Origin: Cyanobium sp. NIES-981
Lineage (GTDB): Bacteria; Cyanobacteriota; Cyanobacteriia; PCC-6307; Cyanobiaceae
Assembly (NCBI GenBank): GCA_945901765.1
Contig: CAMDLO010000010.1
Coordinates: 1-45,268 of the forward strand
Reading direction: 5' to 3'
DNA: 45,268 nucleotides
In this document: positions 36,321-45,268 of the stretch, in pieces
Layout of the letters: each line of letters begins with the position of its first letter
Position numbering within the stretch: position 1 is the stretch's first letter
Made by a program: the position numbers and the translations under genes
The notes under the pieces: generated by a model
What the model saw: only the letters and a program-made list of their open reading frames with translations
What the model was told of the DNA's origin: nothing
Database searches by the model: none

Positions 36321-36337
36321 GGCCCGTTCAGCGGGCC
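36321..36337. terminator. Possible bidirectional stem at convergent gene ends
   Basis: GGCCCG (36321-36326) and CGGGCC (36332-36337) form a 6-bp GC stem with a 5-nt loop in the 16-bp gap between the PSRP-3 gene and the NTF2-like membrane-protein gene, overlapping the stop of the latter. No T tract is present on either side, so termination is only a guess. Confidence 0.3.
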
Positions 36338-37455
36338 TGAATCACCTGGCCGAAGCCGCTGGCAACGATCTGGGCTGGATCGGTGGCGGTGTCGACCCTG
36401 AAGCTGCGGGTTTCGATCTGGCGTGTGCCATCGGGGTAGGTGAAGGTCACCAGCCCCTCCAGCACCACCTGGCTGCCGTTGGTGGCGGTTGGGCGCAGCT
36501 GGGTCACCGCGACCCGGCTGAACTGGTTGAAAAAGGCTGGATCAAACTGATCAGCGGCCGCGGCCGTGAACAACCTGCGGGCGGCCTCCGTATCGCGGGC
36601 ATTCAGGGCGGCGTACAGCCGCTCCACCGTGGCGGTAGCCGTGGCGGTAGCCGCGCCAGTGGCGTTACCGGTGGTGAAGGCGGTGGCTGGTTCGCTGCTT
36701 GCATCCGCCGGTTCGTCGCGGCGTTCGCCGTCCGCGGCGCTGCCCTCTTTACTGGCCTCGGTGCTGTCCGCGGCGCTGCCCTCTGTGATGCCCCGCGTGC
36801 TGTTGTCGCCGGGCAGAGCCGGTGCCGGCGGGGCAAGCCGCCCCTGTGGTGTGCCGTTGTCCGCATCCCGGGGTGGCAGCTGGGGTTGGCGCTGCAGCCA
36901 TAGCAGCACCAGGGCGCCACCGAGGATTCCCACCAGGAAGGAGAGCACGGCCACCAGCGGGCCTGGCCCCGCCCCACGCACGCGGGTGGCCGCCGGAGCT
37001 GGTGCCGGAGCTGGTGCCGGAGTTGGTGCCGCAGCCGGAGCTGACAGCGAATCCGATGCCGCAGCCGCAGCCTGGACAGGGGCCGCAGCCGCTGCCGGAA
37101 CCTGGGCAGGGCCAGGGGCCGGTGCCGGTGCCGACTGCAGGCCGAGCAGACCGACCAGCACCGCTTCAAGCCGGTTGCAGAGCGCCGGCGTGTACAGCGC
37201 GTGCAACTCCTGCCGCAGGGCCGTGACCAGCGTTTCCCCCCGGGTGCCGGTCAGCTCTGCCGGCTGGCTCAGCAGCTTCGCCACCAGGGGGGAACGCAGC
37301 AGATAACTGAGCGCGGGCAGCAGCGCTTGCTGATCGGGCGTCACCCGTGCCGCCAGGCCGTTCTCCAGCCGTCGCGGGTCGACCTGCCCACCCGGTTCGT
37401 GGCGCTGCTGTTCGATGGCGGCCCGCAGATTCCGGCCAAGCGACTGGTCAGACAT
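36328..37455 (-). CDS. Membrane protein with NTF2-like C-terminal domain
   Basis: A 375-residue protein. Residues 1-105 are a soluble helical domain. An Ala/Pro-rich tether leads to one transmembrane helix (GPLVAVLSFLVGILGGALVLLW, about 162-183), followed by a Ser/Glu/Ala-rich linker. The last 100 residues (TVERLYAALNARDTEAARRLF, EGLVTFTYPDGTRQIETRSF, IVASGFGQVIQAR) look like an NTF2/IMS-type domain often attached to cyanobacterial Ser/Thr kinases and ARC6-like proteins. The C-terminal domain is presumably extracytoplasmic. It lies 15 bp downstream of the PP2C gene and is probably the output or sensor arm of the signalling operon. Confidence 0.75.
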   Translation of the reverse strand: MSDQSLGRNLRAAIEQQRHEPGGQVDPRRLENGLAARVTPDQQALLPALSYLLRSPLVAKLLSQPAELTGTRGETLVTALRQELHALYTPALCNRLEAVLVGLLGLQSAPAPAPGPAQVPAAAAAPVQAAAAASDSLSAPAAAPTPAPAPAPAPAATRVRGAGPGPLVAVLSFLVGILGGALVLLWLQRQPQLPPRDADNGTPQGRLAPPAPALPGDNSTRGITEGSAADSTEASKEGSAADGERRDEPADASSEPATAFTTGNATGAATATATATVERLYAALNARDTEAARRLFTAAAADQFDPAFFNQFSRVAVTQLRPTATNGSQVVLEGLVTFTYPDGTRQIETRSFRVDTATDPAQIVASGFGQVIQAR

Positions 37456-37470
37456 CGCAGCCCAACGGCT

Positions 37471-38778
37471 TCAGGGAGTGGCTGCTGCACTCTGCCAGTG
37501 CCGCTGCAGAGCCTCGGTGAGTGCCGGACAGGCCGGCGGCAGCTGCAGGGGTGGGGATTGGGATCCGCTGCGACCCGTGCGGCTGGCCACGATCAGGGCA
37601 CCGGTCGCATCGCCGCTGCGCAGGATCACGGCCGCCTGCCGGGGATCCTGCAGCAGGCGCCGGAACAGCGTCTTGCGCTGACTCAGCGTGGGCTTGATCA
37701 GGGCCGGCTGGTCGCAGAGCCGCTGCACCTCCCGGCGGAGCGCTGTCGGGCCTGATCGGGCCGCTCGGGTGTGGATCGGCAGGGGCAGATGGGTGCTCAG
37801 GCCGACCCAGTCGGGGGGGTTCAGCGCCAGGCCCCCTGCCAGCAGCAGCGTCGATGCGGCGAACAGCAGCACCCCCCGGCCGGGCCAGCGCCGGGCCCGG
37901 CCGGGGCGGACAGCCGCTGCGGCCGGGGCGGGCCAGAGGGCCACCGCCACGGTCACGTCATCACCGCTGCCCTCGCTGCTGATCCGGTCGAGACCGGGAT
38001 CGAGCTGCTCCGTTTCGCCGTTGGCGGCCACCGCCGCCAGAAAGCTGCACAACCGGAGGTGATCCTGATCGGTGGCGCACGATTTGCGGATGCCATCGGT
38101 GCTCAGCACCAGCGCCAGGCTCTCGTCTGGCTTGCCGAGGGGGTGCAGGGCGGTGCGATCTGCGAACAGCCGTGCCGCCTCCGGCAGGCAGAGGCTGGCC
38201 GTGGCTTCCCCCCCACCGGCTGGCGCGGCTTCCTCGCTCACGATCCGTGCCCGCTGCCGCCCGTCGATCAGCACCAGATCCCAGTCGCCCAGCCCTGTGT
38301 GGGCCCACCAGAGCGGCGTGAGCAGCACCAGGCCGAGGGTGGTTCCATAGGGGATGGCCGAAAAGGGCCCCTCGCCCCGCGGCCCGGCAGCGCCGGACTG
38401 CCAGTGCTCAGCCGCCGCTTCGAGCCAGCGCGTCACGATCAGCGCCGGCAGCTCCCGGCTGAGCCAGGCGAGCAGCCGCTCCTGCTGGTGGGCGGAGACG
38501 CCGCATTGCAGCTCGAGCTCCGCCAGCGCGGCGGCGGCGCTGCTGAGGGCGACACGGCAGGCCAGCGCGCTGCCCACGGCACTGAGCCAGTAGCGCTCCC
38601 CACCGTGCCCATCGGCGACCGCCATCAGCTGCACAGGCAGGCCATCGACACTGCAGCTCTGGGCGGCGCGGGCGCTGTCCTGGCAGGGAACGCCCCGGCG
38701 CCGGTGGGCGGATCCGCAGCGGCTGCTGTGCACCGGTGTCGACCACACCGGCCAGGCCGCCAGGGCCGGCTCGCTCAC
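37471..38778 (-). CDS. PP2C-type Ser/Thr phosphatase with membrane anchor
   Basis: A 435-residue protein whose first 285 residues form a PP2C-like phosphatase. Metal-binding Asp56 is in VADGHGG, TTLGLVLL and LVLSTDGIRK follow, and the terminal GSGDDVTVAVAL motif is intact. Residues about 300-320 are a single transmembrane helix (GVLLFAASTLLLAGGLAL). The remaining 115 residues, ending in LPPACPALTEALQRHW, would be extracytoplasmic. It should reverse phosphorylation by the adjacent kinase. The start overlaps the vWA gene's stop by 4 nt. This is the PP2C part of a TerY-P-like triad. Confidence 0.88.
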   Translation of the reverse strand: MSEPALAAWPVWSTPVHSSRCGSAHRRRGVPCQDSARAAQSCSVDGLPVQLMAVADGHGGERYWLSAVGSALACRVALSSAAAALAELELQCGVSAHQQERLLAWLSRELPALIVTRWLEAAAEHWQSGAAGPRGEGPFSAIPYGTTLGLVLLTPLWWAHTGLGDWDLVLIDGRQRARIVSEEAAPAGGGEATASLCLPEAARLFADRTALHPLGKPDESLALVLSTDGIRKSCATDQDHLRLCSFLAAVAANGETEQLDPGLDRISSEGSGDDVTVAVALWPAPAAAAVRPGRARRWPGRGVLLFAASTLLLAGGLALNPPDWVGLSTHLPLPIHTRAARSGPTALRREVQRLCDQPALIKPTLSQRKTLFRRLLQDPRQAAVILRSGDATGALIVASRTGRSGSQSPPLQLPPACPALTEALQRHWQSAAATP

Positions 38779-39557
38779 CAGACCACCGGTCCGATGTCAT
38801 CCATCGGGTCGATGGCGGTGGGCGGGAGATCCGGCAGGGGGATGTTGCCCTCAGCGATCTCCGGGCTGCCGACGCGGCTGGTGGGCATCGAGGCGGCCCC
38901 CACCACGGCGGTGGAGGCCCACTGGATGTACTGGGCCAGCGCGGTGGCGTTGCTGGCCTGCAGGGGACGACGCGGCGAGCGTCCGGCCCGGGGCATCTCG
39001 CCGCTTGCGCCCGGTACTTCACCGGCGGGCAGCACGGCGCCGCTTGCGGGGCCGATGAACGCCTGCAGCACCTCCAGGTCGGCGTCGTGGCCGAGGGCGA
39101 TCGCCAGGCGCACGGCCTTCTGGGCCCAGGGCTGTCGCATCAGCTTGCGCAGGCCCGCTTCGAAGTCGTCGGTGGGCTGGCCATCGGAGATCAGCACCAG
39201 CACCGGCGGCAGGGCCCGTTGCTCCATCGGCGGTGCGGCCAGCTGGGCCGCCACCAGCTCCAGCGCTTCTCCCATGGCGGTGACGCCGCCAGCCTGCAGA
39301 TCGGTCCAGACGAGCTGCTCCACCGGGGTGGGCTCACTGATGTGCCAGTGGGCCCGGTCGGCGAAGCGCACGGCCCGCACCAGCACCCGCGCTTCCGGGT
39401 TGTCGCGGGCCACGTTCGCCATGCCCGGCAGCGACTGGCGGATGGCCTGGTTGAGGGCCTGCATCTTGCCCTGGGCTGCCATCGAGCCGGAGCAGTCGCA
39501 GAGGTAAATGAAGTGCAGGGGCCGGCTGGCCAGTTTCACGTTGGGGAAGCTGGGCAT
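38775..39557 (-). CDS. vWA-domain protein (TerY-like)
   Basis: A 260-residue von Willebrand A protein. The MIDAS metal site is complete: DCSGS (residues 21-25) in HFIYLCDCSGSMAAQG, the Thr in GGVTAMGEAL, and the Asp in VLISDGQPTDD. The C-terminal 60 residues are Pro/Ser-rich and probably disordered. TerY-type vWA proteins are encoded with a PP2C phosphatase and a kinase in TerY-P modules, exactly the neighbourhood here. It is probably a metal-dependent scaffold or phosphorylation substrate. It shares overlapping or abutting ends with both neighbours. Confidence 0.9.
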   Translation of the reverse strand: MPSFPNVKLASRPLHFIYLCDCSGSMAAQGKMQALNQAIRQSLPGMANVARDNPEARVLVRAVRFADRAHWHISEPTPVEQLVWTDLQAGGVTAMGEALELVAAQLAAPPMEQRALPPVLVLISDGQPTDDFEAGLRKLMRQPWAQKAVRLAIALGHDADLEVLQAFIGPASGAVLPAGEVPGASGEMPRAGRSPRRPLQASNATALAQYIQWASTAVVGAASMPTSRVGSPEIAEGNIPLPDLPPTAIDPMDDIGPVVW

Positions 39558-40924
39558 CAGGGGGCGGATTCGCGGAGGGGGCCGGCGGTGGCTGCCGCCG
39601 CCGGCTGGCTCAGGCTCACGCTCCCCAGATGGGTCTCGAGCCGGCGCAGCCCGGCGAGGTTACAGCTCCTGCCGGGATCGAGCGTCAGCATCCGGCCGTC
39701 TGCCAGTTCCGCCCGCCACGCCCTGTCGCTGAGGTTGCGCAACCCCAGCAGCGCCGGATCGCCGGGGTGGGGGTCGATCCGGGCCAGCGGTCGATCCAGC
39801 GCCGGCAGTTCGCGCTTGTTGAAGTGATGGGCATGCAGCGCGTTGCCGGCGCTCACCACCACGGCCGCGTGGGGGGTGTGCAGCAGCGGCGGCGCGGCCA
39901 GGGGGGTGTGGCAGTGCCAGCAGGCCGGCTGGGTCCCGAAGGTCTCCTGCCCGCACACGCCGCAGAGCTGGCGCCGGTCGAGGCTGCGGGCCAGCACCTC
40001 CTGCCACTGGCCGGTGAGAGCGCGACGGGATGGTGCCTTCAGGCCGGCCACGAAGGTCTGCAGGAACAGCGCCTGCAGGTCGCTGGGATAAAGCGGCCAG
40101 GTGACCAGCGCCGCCTGGTGGAGCTCGGGATCGGGCCGGTTGCGCGCGTCGTCGGGATCGAAGATGAACACCGGATCCTCGCCGTAGAGACGGCGGCGGG
40201 CCGGTTCATCGAGGCAGCGGATCGCCAGTTCAAGCTTGCCCTTGAGGGGATCGTGGCGGGTGAGCAGCCGGAAGATCAGCACCGCCAGGGAAAACAGATC
40301 GCTGTCGGCACCGGGTTTCGCCTGGCGCATCAGGATCTCCGGCGCCATGAACCCCGGGGTGCCGAGCACGCTGCCGAGATCGCGGCCGTCGACATCGACG
40401 TTGTCGTTGTCGCAGATCAGGATGCGGCCGCTGCCGGGCTCGAGGAAGAGGTTGCCCAGGGAGATGTCCTTGTAGCAGAGCCCCTTGCTGTGCAGGGCGT
40501 GGAATGCCTCCGCCAGGTGGAAGGCCGCCCGCAGGGCCTCCCCGAGGCTGAAGGCGATCCGCCCGGCGATGTGCTCCACCGCCGCCACATAGCCCGCGGG
40601 CCGCAGCGGCATCAGGTAGCCGAACCCGGCCGGTCGGCAGCGCACCAGCGGCAGGCTGTCGGCGGTGGGATGGAGCAGGGCGATCGGCCAGAGGAAGTGC
40701 TGATTGGGTGCGGTGGTGCGGATGCTCTCGGCGAGTCGCCGCTCCAGGTGGGGATCGCGGGCGATGCAGCTGGGGAGGTACCACTTGAGGGCGAGCGCTT
40801 CGTTCTGCACCGCCACCTCGTACACCTGGCCCTGGCTGCCGCTGCCGAGCCCGCGCACCACCTGCACCGGTGTGCTGAAGGCCTCGAACTGCAGCCAGGC
40901 TCCCTCCGGCAGGATCCAGGTCAC
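39557..40924 (-). CDS. Protein kinase-like protein with C-terminal zinc ribbon
   Basis: A 455-residue kinase-fold protein. The glycine loop is GLGSGSQGQVYEV (residues 25-37) and the ATP-anchoring Lys47 is in ALKWY. The catalytic loop is YKDISLGNLF, with Asp153 and Asn158, and Tyr in place of the HRD His. The DFG position reads DND (172-174), keeping the Mg-binding Asp, and APEIL follows. A CX2C-X10-CX2C zinc ribbon lies at Cys321-338. A final beta-rich segment ends the protein. This is the kinase of a TerY-P-like module. GTG at 40924 overlaps the FHA gene stop by 4 nt; the longer open frame upstream is rejected. Confidence 0.85.
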   Translation of the reverse strand: MTWILPEGAWLQFEAFSTPVQVVRGLGSGSQGQVYEVAVQNEALALKWYLPSCIARDPHLERRLAESIRTTAPNQHFLWPIALLHPTADSLPLVRCRPAGFGYLMPLRPAGYVAAVEHIAGRIAFSLGEALRAAFHLAEAFHALHSKGLCYKDISLGNLFLEPGSGRILICDNDNVDVDGRDLGSVLGTPGFMAPEILMRQAKPGADSDLFSLAVLIFRLLTRHDPLKGKLELAIRCLDEPARRRLYGEDPVFIFDPDDARNRPDPELHQAALVTWPLYPSDLQALFLQTFVAGLKAPSRRALTGQWQEVLARSLDRRQLCGVCGQETFGTQPACWHCHTPLAAPPLLHTPHAAVVVSAGNALHAHHFNKRELPALDRPLARIDPHPGDPALLGLRNLSDRAWRAELADGRMLTLDPGRSCNLAGLRRLETHLGSVSLSQPAAAATAGPLRESAP

Positions 40925-41673
40925 GACGCTCCGCTGGAATCCAGACTCTGGCCGATGGCGCGCCGGATGCCGCCGCAGTGCGCCAGCGCCGTGCGGCGGT
41001 TGGCGAAGCGGTGCGTCAGGGCCTGGCCGTCGTGCAGCACCACCTGCAGGGTGTGCTCCTTGCGGGACCCCAGCAGGATCCAGCCCGCCAGGGCGCCGAT
41101 CTGCAAGGGCCAGAACAGCAGCGGGAACGGCAGCAGCAGCAGCCCGCCCAGGCAGAGCAGCAGCCACCAGCTGAAGATCTGGGGGTAGTGCGGTTCGCTG
41201 ATCACCCCGGCCGACTGGATGCTGGCCAGCGGCAGGGACCGGCCGTCGAAATCGAGGCAGGCCCCAGCGGACACGGGAGCTGCTGGAGTGCGCCCAGGAG
41301 ACACGGCGGCTGCTGGAGTGCGCCCAGGGGACACGGCGGCTGCTGGGGGCGTTCCGGGGTGCTCCAGCCGGAACAGCAGCACCGGGCCATTCGGGCCCAG
41401 CTGGATCCGGTCCCCATCGGCGAGGGGGCGGCAGCTCTGGATCCGTCGCCCGGCCAGGTAGGTGCCGGTGTCGCTCTGCCAGTTGCACACCAACCAGCCC
41501 TGGCTGGCGGAGAAGCGCACCACCGCATGGTGATCGGCCACGCCCGCCGCCCTGGTCAGCTGCAGCCGGTTGCCGGCGGCCCGGCCGATCGTGAGCGGGG
41601 TGGCGGGGTCGAGCGGGGCCACCTTGGCGGGCTCGCTCTCCAGCTGCAGGCTGGCCTGAGGGGTGGCGATCAC
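40921..41673 (-). CDS. FHA-like domain membrane protein
   Basis: A 250-residue protein. Residues about 10-90 have an FHA-like fold pattern (TIGRAAGNRLQL, DTGTYLAGRRIQ, LADGDRIQLGPNGPVLLF). The canonical phosphothreonine contacts are degraded: the Ser of SxxH is replaced (VADHHA) and the Asn is missing, so classical pThr binding is doubtful. A Pro/Ala/Ser linker encoded by 30-bp tandem repeats follows, then hydrophobic segments near 170-205 (WWLLLCLGGLLLLPFPLLFW and IGALAGWILLG) and a cytoplasmic tail. GTG at 41673 overlaps the stop of the upstream small membrane protein by 4 nt. Confidence 0.78.
   Translation of the reverse strand: MIATPQASLQLESEPAKVAPLDPATPLTIGRAAGNRLQLTRAAGVADHHAVVRFSASQGWLVCNWQSDTGTYLAGRRIQSCRPLADGDRIQLGPNGPVLLFRLEHPGTPPAAAVSPGRTPAAAVSPGRTPAAPVSAGACLDFDGRSLPLASIQSAGVISEPHYPQIFSWWLLLCLGGLLLLPFPLLFWPLQIGALAGWILLGSRKEHTLQVVLHDGQALTHRFANRRTALAHCGGIRRAIGQSLDSSGAS
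41270..41350. repeat. 30-bp minisatellite inside the FHA gene
   Basis: Two and two-thirds copies of a 30-bp unit (starts 41270, 41300, 41330; core gctgctggagtgcgcccagg) encode the linker repeat PAAAVSPGRT. The unit length is a multiple of three, so copy-number change would lengthen or shorten the tether without breaking the frame. Confidence 0.85.
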
Positions 41674-41993
41674 GGCCTCTCGCTGCGGCGGGAACGGGGG
41701 ACGGAGCGGTGCGTGAAGGAGTGGCGCTGCCACCAGAGCTGCCAGTCGTCGCGCCGGTCCTGCCACCAGCCCCCATCCCCCTGCCGCCAGGCGATGACAC
41801 GGCCGGGCCACAGCAGAGCCTTGCTGGCCAGGGCCAGGGCCACCAGCACCATCACCAGCAGCACCCAGCCCGGGATGGCCCCGGGCCACTGGGCCGCAAA
41901 GAAGGCCCGGATCGCGTAAAGGCCGATCGTGAGGGCGAGCCAGAGCCGGAAGGGCTCCCAGGGGTCCCGCTGGCGCTGCACCGGCCGACGCAC
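41670..41993 (-). CDS. Small membrane protein of the signalling operon
   Basis: A 107-residue protein with two hydrophobic segments (FRLWLALTIGLYAIRAFFAA and GWVLLVMVLVALALASKALL), then a Trp/Arg-rich cytoplasmic tail (WWQDRRDDWQLWWQRHSF). No family is recognised. GTG at 41993 is the start, and its stop overlaps the FHA gene start. It is first in the minus-strand operon and faces the FHA-PBP gene across a 141-bp divergent region, which presumably holds both promoters. Confidence 0.65.
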   Translation of the reverse strand: MRRPVQRQRDPWEPFRLWLALTIGLYAIRAFFAAQWPGAIPGWVLLVMVLVALALASKALLWPGRVIAWRQGDGGWWQDRRDDWQLWWQRHSFTHRSVPRSRRSERP

Positions 41994-42134
41994 GACAGGG
42001 CTCGTAGCCTAATCCGCACCCGAACCTTCACCCTGAATCAGTCCGGACCCACGGTCGGCCCCGAACCCCGCGACGGCTGGGGCACCCTGGCGCGGGCCCT
42101 GACCCGCGGCCCCTGGGCGGCGCGGCCGGCGGCG

Positions 42135-44291
42135 GTGCGGCGGGCCTGGCAGGCGCTGGCGGCGCGGTCGCCGCGGCTGGAGCTGTGGGCGGCCGGCCGG
42201 TGTCAACAGGCGCTGCCCCTGGCTGAGCGGCGCTACCGCATCGGCCGGGATCCCGGCTGCGATCTGGTGCTGAGCGGTCCGGGCCTGAGCCGGGTGCACG
42301 CCATCCTCGCCAAGGCGCGCCCCAGCGACCGCGACTTCGCCCTCGAGGACTTCCGCTCCGCCAACGGCCTGTTCCACCGGGACCGGCGCATCCGCTGGAT
42401 TCAGCTGCGCGATGGCGATGCGGTGCAGCTGGGTTCGCCCCTCAAGGGGGAGGCGGCGGAACTGCGCTACCTGCACCCCCGCAGCGCCCTGGAGCGGGCG
42501 GTGCACCGCCTCGGCGTGGCGGCCCTGGCCGGTTCGGCCCTGCTGGTGAGCGGCATGCTGGTGGCGGCCAGTGTGGGCGGCGGCTCGAAGATCCGCACGA
42601 TCAGCGGGCCGGTGAAGATCTTTGCGGCCAGCGGCCAGCAGATCGACGCCCGGCAGGGGTCGGCCACGGCCCTGCCCAGCCTGCAGGATTACCCCCTGCA
42701 TCTCCGTCAGGCGCTGATCGCCTCGGAGGAGGCGCGCTTCGGCTGGAACAGCGGCATCGACCTGTTCGGCACGGTGCGCTCGGCCCTGCTGCGCAGCGGT
42801 GGCGGCAGCGGCCTCACCCAGCAGGTGGCGCGGCTCGTTTATCCAGAGGTGGGTCGCGATGTGAGCATCAGCCGCAAGCTGCGGGAGCTGTGGGTGGCGC
42901 TGCAGCTGGAGGTGGGCTTCAGCAAGAATCAGATCCTCAAGCTCTACCTCGATCGCGCCCATCTCGGGCAGGGTACGGACGGCTTCGAGCAGGGAGCCCA
43001 GCTCTATTTCCGCAAATCGGCCCGTGCCCTCGATCGGGCGGAGGCGGCGTTCCTGGTGGGTCTGCTGCCCAGCCCCAATGGCTATTCCCCCTGCAATCCC
43101 GATGATCCGGGGGCGGGGCTGGAGCGGCGCAACCTGGTGCTGGGCCTGATGCACGAGCAGGGCTGGCTGAGCGACCAGGCCCTGATCGATGCCCAGCGCC
43201 GGCCGCTCAACATCGACGCCACCGCCTGCCGGGAGTCGCTGTTCAGCAGCTATCCCTACTTCAGCGATTACGTGGTGGGGGAGCTGGAGGGCACCCGCTT
43301 CGGCCTGAACCTCAGCGGCGCTGCCGCCACGGGCAACTACGCGGTGATCAGCACGATCAATCCGCAGCTGCAGCAGCTGGCCCAGCAGCAGCTGCAGCGG
43401 TTCCTGGAGGGGCCAGGGGCGGCGGCCGGGCTGAGCCAGGGCGCCCTGATCACGCTCAACGTGGCCAGCGGCGAAATCCTGGCCTACGTGGGTGGCGGCG
43501 ACTACAGCCGCTCCAGTTTTGATCGGGTGCAGGCCCTGCGCCAGCCGGGCTCCACCTTCAAGCTGTTTCCGTTCCTGGCGGCGCTGGCGGCGGGGGCGGC
43601 GCCGTCGGATCCGTTTGCCTGCGCCCCGCTCAGTTACGTGGAGGGCTGCAGCCGTTCGGGCGGGGCAGGGGCGGTGTCGCTGGCGGATGGTTTCGCCCGC
43701 TCGGAGAACGTGGTGGCGGTGCGGGTGGCGCAGCGGGCCGGCCTCGATCAGGTGCTGCGGCAGGCGCGCCGCCTCGGCATCTCCACGCCGCTGGAGCCCG
43801 ACACCAACACCGTGCTCGGCGGCCGTGAAACCTATCTCTATGAGCTGGCGCGCGCCTATGCGGTGGTGGCCAACGGCGGCCGCTCGGTGCCGATGCATGG
43901 GGTGAGCCGCATCTACGACCTGGGGATCTGCCAGTCGGTGCTGGCGCTGGAACGCTGCCCGGAGCGGGGCGTCACGGTGCCGCTCGGCGAACGGCCGCGC
44001 CAGCTGCTCAGCCCGGAGCTGGCCGCGGCGATGGACGATCTGCTGGTGCAGGTGGTGCAGCGCGGCACGGGCCGGGCGGCGGCCCTGGTGCCGGATGCCC
44101 GCGGCAAGACGGGCACCACCAACGACGGGGTGGATGCCCTGTTCGTGGGTTACTCCCCCTCGCTGGGGGTGCTCACCGCCATCTGGATGGGCAACGACGA
44201 CAACACGCCGGCGGCTGCGGCCAGCGGTGGCCTGGTGGCCGAACTCTGGGGCCGTTACATGCAGGCCGCCGCCCGCCTGCTTCAGGCCTGA
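42135..44291 (+). CDS. FHA-domain class A penicillin-binding protein (PBP1A-like)
   Basis: A 718-residue bifunctional peptidoglycan synthase fused to a cytoplasmic FHA domain. FHA residues (about 13-95) are intact: GR in YRIGRDPGCDLVL, Ser/His in LSRVHA and Asn in SANGLF. One transmembrane helix lies near 130-148 (LGVAALAGSALLVSGMLVAA). The GT51 glycosyltransferase has its catalytic Glu near 198 (IASEEARFGWNSG), then GSGLTQQVARLVYPE. The transpeptidase has STFK (Ser473), SEN (about 523) and KTG (658). GTG at 42135 is a conservative start; the frame is open upstream without ATG, GTG or TTG near the gene. It probably links phosphothreonine signalling to cell-wall synthesis. Confidence 0.9.
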   Translation: MRRAWQALAARSPRLELWAAGRCQQALPLAERRYRIGRDPGCDLVLSGPGLSRVHAILAKARPSDRDFALEDFRSANGLFHRDRRIRWIQLRDGDAVQLGSPLKGEAAELRYLHPRSALERAVHRLGVAALAGSALLVSGMLVAASVGGGSKIRTISGPVKIFAASGQQIDARQGSATALPSLQDYPLHLRQALIASEEARFGWNSGIDLFGTVRSALLRSGGGSGLTQQVARLVYPEVGRDVSISRKLRELWVALQLEVGFSKNQILKLYLDRAHLGQGTDGFEQGAQLYFRKSARALDRAEAAFLVGLLPSPNGYSPCNPDDPGAGLERRNLVLGLMHEQGWLSDQALIDAQRRPLNIDATACRESLFSSYPYFSDYVVGELEGTRFGLNLSGAAATGNYAVISTINPQLQQLAQQQLQRFLEGPGAAAGLSQGALITLNVASGEILAYVGGGDYSRSSFDRVQALRQPGSTFKLFPFLAALAAGAAPSDPFACAPLSYVEGCSRSGGAGAVSLADGFARSENVVAVRVAQRAGLDQVLRQARRLGISTPLEPDTNTVLGGRETYLYELARAYAVVANGGRSVPMHGVSRIYDLGICQSVLALERCPERGVTVPLGERPRQLLSPELAAAMDDLLVQVVQRGTGRAAALVPDARGKTGTTNDGVDALFVGYSPSLGVLTAIWMGNDDNTPAAAASGGLVAELWGRYMQAAARLLQA

Positions 44292-45268
44292 GCTGCGCTC
44301 TGGAGGCTGTGGAGCAGCTGCAGCAACCAGCTGACCAGGCCCCAGCCGGCGCCGAACAGCAGCCCCCAGCACCAGGGGCTGGCCAGCAGTTCGCCCCAGC
44401 GGTCCGCGCTCACGCCGCTCGCCGCCGCCTGATGGCGCTCCCGGCTCTGCCAGGAGAGCTGCAGACCGGCGTAGATCAGCAGCAGCACCCAGGCGGGGAT
44501 GGTGAGCGGGTTCACGGTGTAGCCCAGATCCCGACGCTGCAGCAGGCTCAGGCTCCCCGCCAGACCGATCAGGGCCCCCACCGCGCCGGAGGCGCCGCCC
44601 CAGCAGCGGGGCGGGGCTGCGGCGGGCTGCACCAGGGCCACGGCGATCAGGGTGGCCAGGCTGGTGAGGGCGTAGCGGAGGATCACATCGGGCAGCTGCA
44701 GGGCGGAGTTGCCGAGGATCACGGCCAGCATGATCAGGTTGAGCACGGCCTCACCGCGCCGCGGCTGCACCCAGGCGGCGCTCAGCCAGCGCCAGGCATG
44801 CCGGCTGTCGCCCGCCAGATCGCTGGCCAGCAGGGCGTCGCGACGCCAGTGGCGCAGTGGTGGTGCCAGCAGCAGCGCTTCGATCAGGGCCAGCACCAGC
44901 ACCAGCACGGCGCCGCCGCTCCAGCCCCAGTCTTCAAACAGAAGGCGGTCCAGTTCGGCACCGCTCCACATCCACACCAGGGCAGCAGCGGCCGCCAGAG
45001 CGATGCCGCCGGCCAGGGGGCGCAGGCGACGGCCCAGCGGCAGCCAGCGCACCTGCCGTCGCCGTGGGGCGTTGGCAGGGGGCAAGCCGTCGCGCGGCAG
45101 GTTGATCTGGCCGAACTCCTCCAGCAGGTCGAGCAGTTGGGCCAGCACCCCGGGGCTGTAGGTGGCGGCCAGTTCCCGGCCCAGCTGCTCCAGGCTGGTG
45201 CGGCGGGCCAGGCCCTGCTGCCGCAGGCACTGGCGGAACAGGGGGCGTGCGGCCAGATCGCGCAGCGG
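44282..45268 (-). CDS. Rhomboid-like membrane protein (partial, 5' end beyond window)
   Basis: At least 328 residues are visible; the frame is open to the window edge, so the N-terminus is missing. The visible N-terminal 80 residues are soluble, followed by six or more hydrophobic helices. A rhomboid-like core is suggested by WRWLSAAWVQPRRGEAVLNLIMLA, and by CWGGASGAVGALIGLAGSL, where GASG places the rhomboid serine. The TM6 catalytic His (normally AHxxG) is not found: the equivalent stretch reads ADRWGELLASPWCWGLLFG. It may be an inactive rhomboid. It is convergent with the FHA-PBP gene, overlapping by 10 bp. Confidence 0.65.
   Translation of the reverse strand, partial: PLRDLAARPLFRQCLRQQGLARRTSLEQLGRELAATYSPGVLAQLLDLLEEFGQINLPRDGLPPANAPRRRQVRWLPLGRRLRPLAGGIALAAAAALVWMWSGAELDRLLFEDWGWSGGAVLVLVLALIEALLLAPPLRHWRRDALLASDLAGDSRHAWRWLSAAWVQPRRGEAVLNLIMLAVILGNSALQLPDVILRYALTSLATLIAVALVQPAAAPPRCWGGASGAVGALIGLAGSLSLLQRRDLGYTVNPLTIPAWVLLLIYAGLQLSWQSRERHQAAASGVSADRWGELLASPWCWGLLFGAGWGLVSWLLQLLHSLQSAAQA

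Follow-up and report, generated by a model that had tools for sequence, protein, structure and literature searches.

The 45,268-nucleotide stretch of Cyanobium sp. NIES-981 DNA analyzed here (contig CAMDLO010000010.1; hereafter the window) contains, between positions 36328 and 44291, a minus-strand operon encoding a Ser/Thr kinase, a von Willebrand factor A (vWA) protein and a PP2C phosphatase and, divergent from it, a gene for a class A penicillin-binding protein (PBP) fused to an FHA domain. What would tie such a kinase-phosphatase triad to a peptidoglycan synthase?

Organization of the locus

We assigned the parts from gene models on the two strands, Pfam domains, hydropathy and orthologue alignments. 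The first operon gene encodes a 107-residue membrane protein (41670-41993, minus strand, as are all of the operon genes), identified by hydropathy, and the second a 250-residue protein with a Pfam FHA domain and membrane segments (40921-41673). They are followed by the kinase (455 residues; 39557-40924; Pfam Pkinase), which ends in a zinc ribbon and a further small beta domain; the vWA protein (260 residues; 38775-39557; Pfam VWA), with an intact MIDAS and a conserved C-terminal tail, LPPTxxDP...VW; and the phosphatase (435 residues; 37471-38778; Pfam PP2C_2, PF13672, 7e-20), with one transmembrane (TM) segment and a C-terminal extracytoplasmic tail. The last gene encodes a 375-residue membrane protein (36328-37455) composed of an N-terminal helical domain, a TM segment and a C-terminal domain that is modeled by AlphaFold2 with a pLDDT above 90 and matches NTF2-fold PDB entries in Foldseek. 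The junctions are tight: the small protein and FHA-TM genes overlap by GTGA, as do the FHA-TM and kinase genes, the kinase and vWA genes meet at TGATG, the vWA and PP2C genes overlap by GTGA, and 15 bp separate the PP2C gene from the NTF2-like gene.

The PBP gene (42135-44291, plus strand) encodes Pfam FHA, Transgly and Transpeptidase domains. Because its single TM segment (approximately 42507-42581) comes after the FHA domain (42234-42434), the FHA domain is predicted to be cytoplasmic and the catalytic domains periplasmic. The GTG at 42135 is the latest and safest start, although an open, conserved frame extends back to approximately 42012. The divergent intergenic and promoter region that separates the PBP gene from the operon (41994-42134) varies in extent with the start used. 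The Pfam matches of the operon FHA, Pkinase, VWA and PP2C_2 domains and of all three PBP domains are above the cut-off, and TM segments are predicted in every protein of the locus but the kinase and the vWA protein. The gene set, order, strands and overlaps, and the divergent PBP, thus agree with an initial annotation that had been made from the sequence alone. A rhomboid-family gene (44282-45148; weak rhombosortase match) converges on the PBP gene and flanks these genes in most of the genomes that carry them.

Integrity of the catalytic and phosphothreonine-contact residues

Residue conservation was scored over 32-33 orthologues per protein. The kinase residues Lys47, Asp153, Asn158 and Asp172, the four zinc-ribbon cysteines (CxxC...CxxC), the metal-binding Asp residues of the phosphatase and the MIDAS residues of the vWA protein are invariant in 33/33. 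Likewise, the GT51 Glu and the transpeptidase SxxK, SxN and KTG motifs that characterize class A PBPs are invariant in all 32 PBP orthologues, and so are the GR / SRxH / SxNG phosphothreonine-contact residues of the PBP FHA domain, which the initial annotation had described as intact in the window. The equivalent residues of the operon FHA-TM protein vary among orthologues (Asn in 14/32, Ser in 28/32, Arg in 27/32), and in the window they are degenerate, with VADHH and DTG at the contact motifs. Judged by these residues, if one FHA domain at the locus reads phosphothreonine, it is that of the PBP.

The AlphaFold2 model of the kinase (pLDDT 92) supports a kinase fold followed by a zinc ribbon. 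The kinase lacks a TM segment by hydropathy and matches only kinase families in Pfam, so it is not a PASTA kinase of the PknB type. An FHA-like identity for its C-terminal beta domain was considered and is not claimed, since profile comparison gave a probability of 10%, which is too weak. In one genome (G144; L093:8288-9570) the kinase gene seems interrupted, the tblastn match being split into residues 1-375 and 350-436, possibly by a frameshift or an assembly error.

The kinase and the module-type PBP occur together

How often are the kinase and this PBP found in the same genome? We drew two samples of the order, of 150 and then 399 genomes. Thirty-three genomes of the first sample carry the kinase, and 32 of these 33 also carry a close PBP orthologue. 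In the larger draw, 60 genomes carry both, none carries the module-type PBP alone, two carry the kinase alone and 337 carry neither. The two genes are divergent neighbours, 1.1-2.3 kb apart, in 59 of the 60, and in the 60th they are split over contigs. Rare co-occurrence, which the initial annotation had named as the observation that would tell against a link, is the opposite of what we find. Of the kinase-only exceptions, one (G612) is an 83% complete assembly, while the other (G005) encodes the kinase, vWA protein and phosphatase and truly lacks the PBP, the FHA-TM protein and the small membrane protein; its triad is the only clear one of the family that stands without the FHA-PBP. Fisher's p for the co-occurrence is 1e-69, a value that ignores relatedness and should not stand alone.

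Gene-by-gene inspection of 32 genomes, over loci of up to 20 kb, revealed a six-gene unit. The core order, PBP / small protein-FHA.TM-kinase-vWA-PP2C, is the same in 31/32 genomes, G005 being the only one that differs, and the junctions within the unit are tight across carriers. Since the core genes recur in the same order across these genomes, the arrangement is not due to chance. The small membrane protein and the FHA-TM protein, which the initial annotation had listed without giving them weight, are both core members; an orthologue of the former is present in every genome with the module that we inspected. The NTF2-like gene, which the initial annotation had counted in the operon, belongs there by position, 15 bp from the PP2C gene, but not as part of the conserved unit: it is absent from one genus (g8) and from G018, G113, G144 and G030. 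We therefore rejected it as a core member and regard it as accessory.

The unit appears to have moved as a whole. It adjoins PSRP3 in most carriers; in G018, G113 and G144 it lies elsewhere on the chromosome, and the flanking XPEP-HAD-PSRP3 locus is intact and empty of it. The rhomboid gene, elsewhere the neighbour of the PBP gene, comes immediately after PSRP3 in G113. In the rpoB tree G018 falls inside genus g5 (support 99); no other g5 genome in the sample has the unit. A tree of concatenated PBP, kinase and vWA sequences instead groups G018 with genus g9 (support 100). The approximately unbiased (AU) test on the concatenation rejected the placement of G018 outside g1+g9+g17+g25 (p 0.0025); single-gene AU tests did not reject a g9 without G018 (p 0.35 and 0.38), and only the concatenation is decisive. 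The simplest reading of these trees is that the unit was apparently transferred jointly into the G018 lineage.

Origin of the module-type PBP

Strong matches to the window PBP are present in 247/291 genomes of the class, almost all of which have a single match; among the matches listed the alignments extend into the FHA region. These ancestral FHA-PBPs have the same FHA-TM-glycosyltransferase-transpeptidase architecture and FHA residues as the window PBP; they are approximately 40-44% identical to it and do not adjoin a triad. Of 20 that we checked, nearly all have intact FHA residues, and in none of these 20 genomes does the kinase, vWA, PP2C or FHA-TM gene lie beside the ancestral copy. Module PBPs and ordinary Cyanobiaceae copies form two clades (support 100 for each), both arising after the split of G159 (support 99), and the module clade sits on a long stem. 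By this tree, the module PBP is a Cyanobiaceae duplicate of the ancestral FHA-PBP. The genome of the window carries both types (C10 and C17), and the ancestral copy persists beside the module PBP in most of the same genomes.

Thus, the FHA domain on the PBP is an old cyanobacterial trait, and the special feature of the locus is a duplicate tied to the triad. The initial annotation had linked the FHA-PBP to the kinase-phosphatase switch; the link holds for the duplicated, window-type paralogue and not for FHA-PBPs generally, which do not imply this switch because they are near universal in Cyanobacteriia without such a kinase.

These data bear on a further explanation, namely that the locus is a stress cassette in which the triad and the PBP are needed under the same stress and are co-regulated from the shared divergent promoter region without signaling to each other, the FHA domain reading the marks of other kinases. 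The near universality of ancestral FHA-PBPs that have the same FHA residues and no triad fits this explanation. We nonetheless consider it quite unlikely, as the triad-linked PBP is a separate, long-stem paralogue that is never seen without the triad, and the ancestral copy persists alongside it in most of the same genomes.

The triad belongs to the TerY-P class

TerY-P triads consist of a TerY-like vWA protein, a PP2C phosphatase and a Ser/Thr kinase with a C-terminal zinc ribbon (Anantharaman et al. 2012, as given in PMC11090510). The three contiguous genes of the window operon correspond to this definition in full, so the TerY-P label of the initial annotation was apt. Could the locus then be a TerY-P stress or defence module of the tellurite or restriction type, with the PBP as a passenger or effector? 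TerY-P triads do occur in restriction and defence contexts (PMC11090510), and the PADLOC kinase and TerY models match the window proteins, although weakly (TerY, 8.5e-5). However, a genome-wide search found no TerD-family protein in any of 21 carrier genomes, extending the remark in the initial annotation that none is encoded here, and the conserved neighbours of the triad are membrane and wall proteins rather than nucleases or helicases. Given the absence of TerD from all 21 carriers tested, the gene content indicates that the triad is not a tellurite system, and we hold the stress or defence explanation to be highly improbable. The window system differs from other TerY-P triads in having neither TerD nor DNA-processing genes and in having two small membrane proteins, a divergent FHA-PBP and a phosphatase with a TM segment.

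Relatives of the kinase are widespread. In a bacteria-wide scan of the kinase family covering 80 named loci from Chloroflexota, Acidobacteria, Proteobacteria, Firmicutes and others (several on short contigs), a vWA gene lies near the kinase in 65/80 loci, a PP2C gene in 66/80 and an FHA gene in 7/80. No FHA-PBP lies near the kinase in any of the 80, which contain only two short PBP-like matches (approximately 250 residues) at a distance. A relative is also present in E. coli, where the YegI kinase, PphC phosphatase and YegL vWA genes are clustered as in the window. PphC and YegL match the module profiles, whereas YegI does not match the module kinase profile; it is far in sequence and, unlike the window kinase, membrane-bound, and no FHA or PBP gene lies nearby. 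Because PphC dephosphorylates YegI (PMC13232886), the related kinase-phosphatase pair is a working writer and eraser.

Distant cyanobacterial triads carry other membrane or FHA partners, so links between such triads and envelope proteins that bear FHA domains may be a wider theme. In Pegethrix bostrychoides (G264; L119:931-10041), a distant version of the triad has genes for an L,D-transpeptidase (YkuD), an FHA-TM protein, an FHA-PrsW intramembrane protease, and MORN and RDD proteins between the PP2C and kinase genes; this locus is a second, independent link of a triad to peptidoglycan. In G005 a double-FHA ABC-2 transporter with an Rv1747-like architecture (L081:3347-5704) lies 5 kb from the triad. 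At two further loci (L123:10364-12926 and L122:1781-4352), an FHA domain is fused into a 674-676-residue protein that resembles a flavin oxidoreductase (Pfam matches the FHA domain only); a second FHA-like protein is present, and the genes adjoin a triad whose vWA protein is fused to another kinase.

The helical domain at the N-terminus of the NTF2-like protein (window 37117-37455) weakly matches approximately 30 open reading frames in triad loci of other phyla (E approximately 1e-5 to 1e-2; L224, L238, L248, L249, L262, L272 and others), which differ in their C-terminal parts, for example RDD or a substrate-binding domain. This domain is possibly a shared adaptor of triad loci.

Discussion

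We propose that the locus probably encodes a membrane-associated switch that works by reversible Ser/Thr phosphorylation and serves a single peptidoglycan synthase; the phosphothreonine output of the triad would be read by the FHA domain of the PBP. In this switch the kinase, with the vWA protein as a metal-dependent scaffold, would write phosphothreonine on a cytoplasmic partner or on proteins of the module, and the membrane-anchored phosphatase would erase the mark. The PBP, encoded divergently, would bind this mark through its cytoplasmic FHA domain and would be recruited or regulated at the membrane as a result. Both small membrane proteins might anchor or tune the complex, serving as a scaffold alongside the vWA protein. 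We infer from the locus the direction of the signal, the identity of the phosphothreonine ligand, the binding of the PBP FHA domain and the effect on wall synthesis.

What might the FHA domain bind? Triad vWA proteins across phyla end in an acidic-Val-Trp motif (DDVW; window 38775-38880, and L215-L294), and those of the Cyanobiaceae add PPTxxDP before DDVW. The Thr of this motif, Thr247, is present in 33/33 orthologues and the Asp at +3 in 32/33. FHA domains tend to favour Asp or a hydrophobic side chain at that position, and the conserved TxxD of the vWA tail is a candidate phosphothreonine ligand of the PBP FHA domain by its sequence. Two observations argue against this ligand: the motif is present in G005, which lacks the PBP, and in other phyla a TxxD also turns up by chance close to the conserved DDVW terminus. 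Somewhat tentatively, we suggest that the duplicated FHA-PBP may have come to serve this triad as its own reader, perhaps by binding the vWA-tail TxxD; the locus would then be a self-sufficient, horizontally transferable phospho-switch acting on a cell-wall synthase.

Alternatively, the kinase could phosphorylate the PBP itself, with the FHA domain only docking the synthase on the autophosphorylated kinase or vWA protein, in the manner of PknB and GarA, and phosphorylation of the PBP N-terminus altering catalysis. FHA domains do recruit proteins to autophosphorylated kinases in mycobacteria, and all of the evidence linking the kinase and the PBP fits equally. We consider this arrangement unlikely, because the PBP N-terminus ahead of the FHA domain varies in sequence and start among orthologues and we identified no conserved phosphosite within it.

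Several observations weigh against a switch dedicated to the PBP. The rpoB tree of 80 genomes contains only four well-supported independent changes (six in all); across these four the PBP follows the kinase in three and does not differ in one (p 0.25). The triad of G005, standing alone, indicates that such a triad can work without the PBP and both small membrane proteins. Most genomes hold the unit at one ancestral site, so part of its conservation reflects shared descent. Finally, the same FHA residues are present in ancestral FHA-PBPs that have no triad, so the domain can serve other kinases.

Mycobacteria control peptidoglycan synthesis through an FHA domain (PMC6180346), and the nearest working analogue of the switch that we propose is their PknB - CwlM/MurJ - FhaA circuit, in which an FHA domain reads the mark of a Ser/Thr kinase and thereby regulates how peptidoglycan is made (PMC6180346). 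In that circuit the FHA domain resides on a separate adaptor and the kinase is a PASTA membrane receptor, whereas at the window locus the synthase itself carries the FHA domain and the kinase is soluble. In the open-access literature we found neither a TerY-P triad linked to a PBP nor a kinase named for cyanobacterial FHA-PBPs; an earlier mention is possible.

The locus thus offers a candidate upstream kinase for an FHA-fused class A PBP, and it would add a cell-envelope output to the contexts, tellurite resistance and DNA restriction, in which TerY-P triads have otherwise been discussed. The genes of the putative writer, eraser and reader are adjacent and can be knocked out or transplanted together, so phosphorylation control of such a synthase is open to a direct test here. 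In the genomes searched, the module-type PBP never occurs without the switch, and therefore in some small cyanobacteria the growth of the wall is probably controlled by protein phosphorylation.

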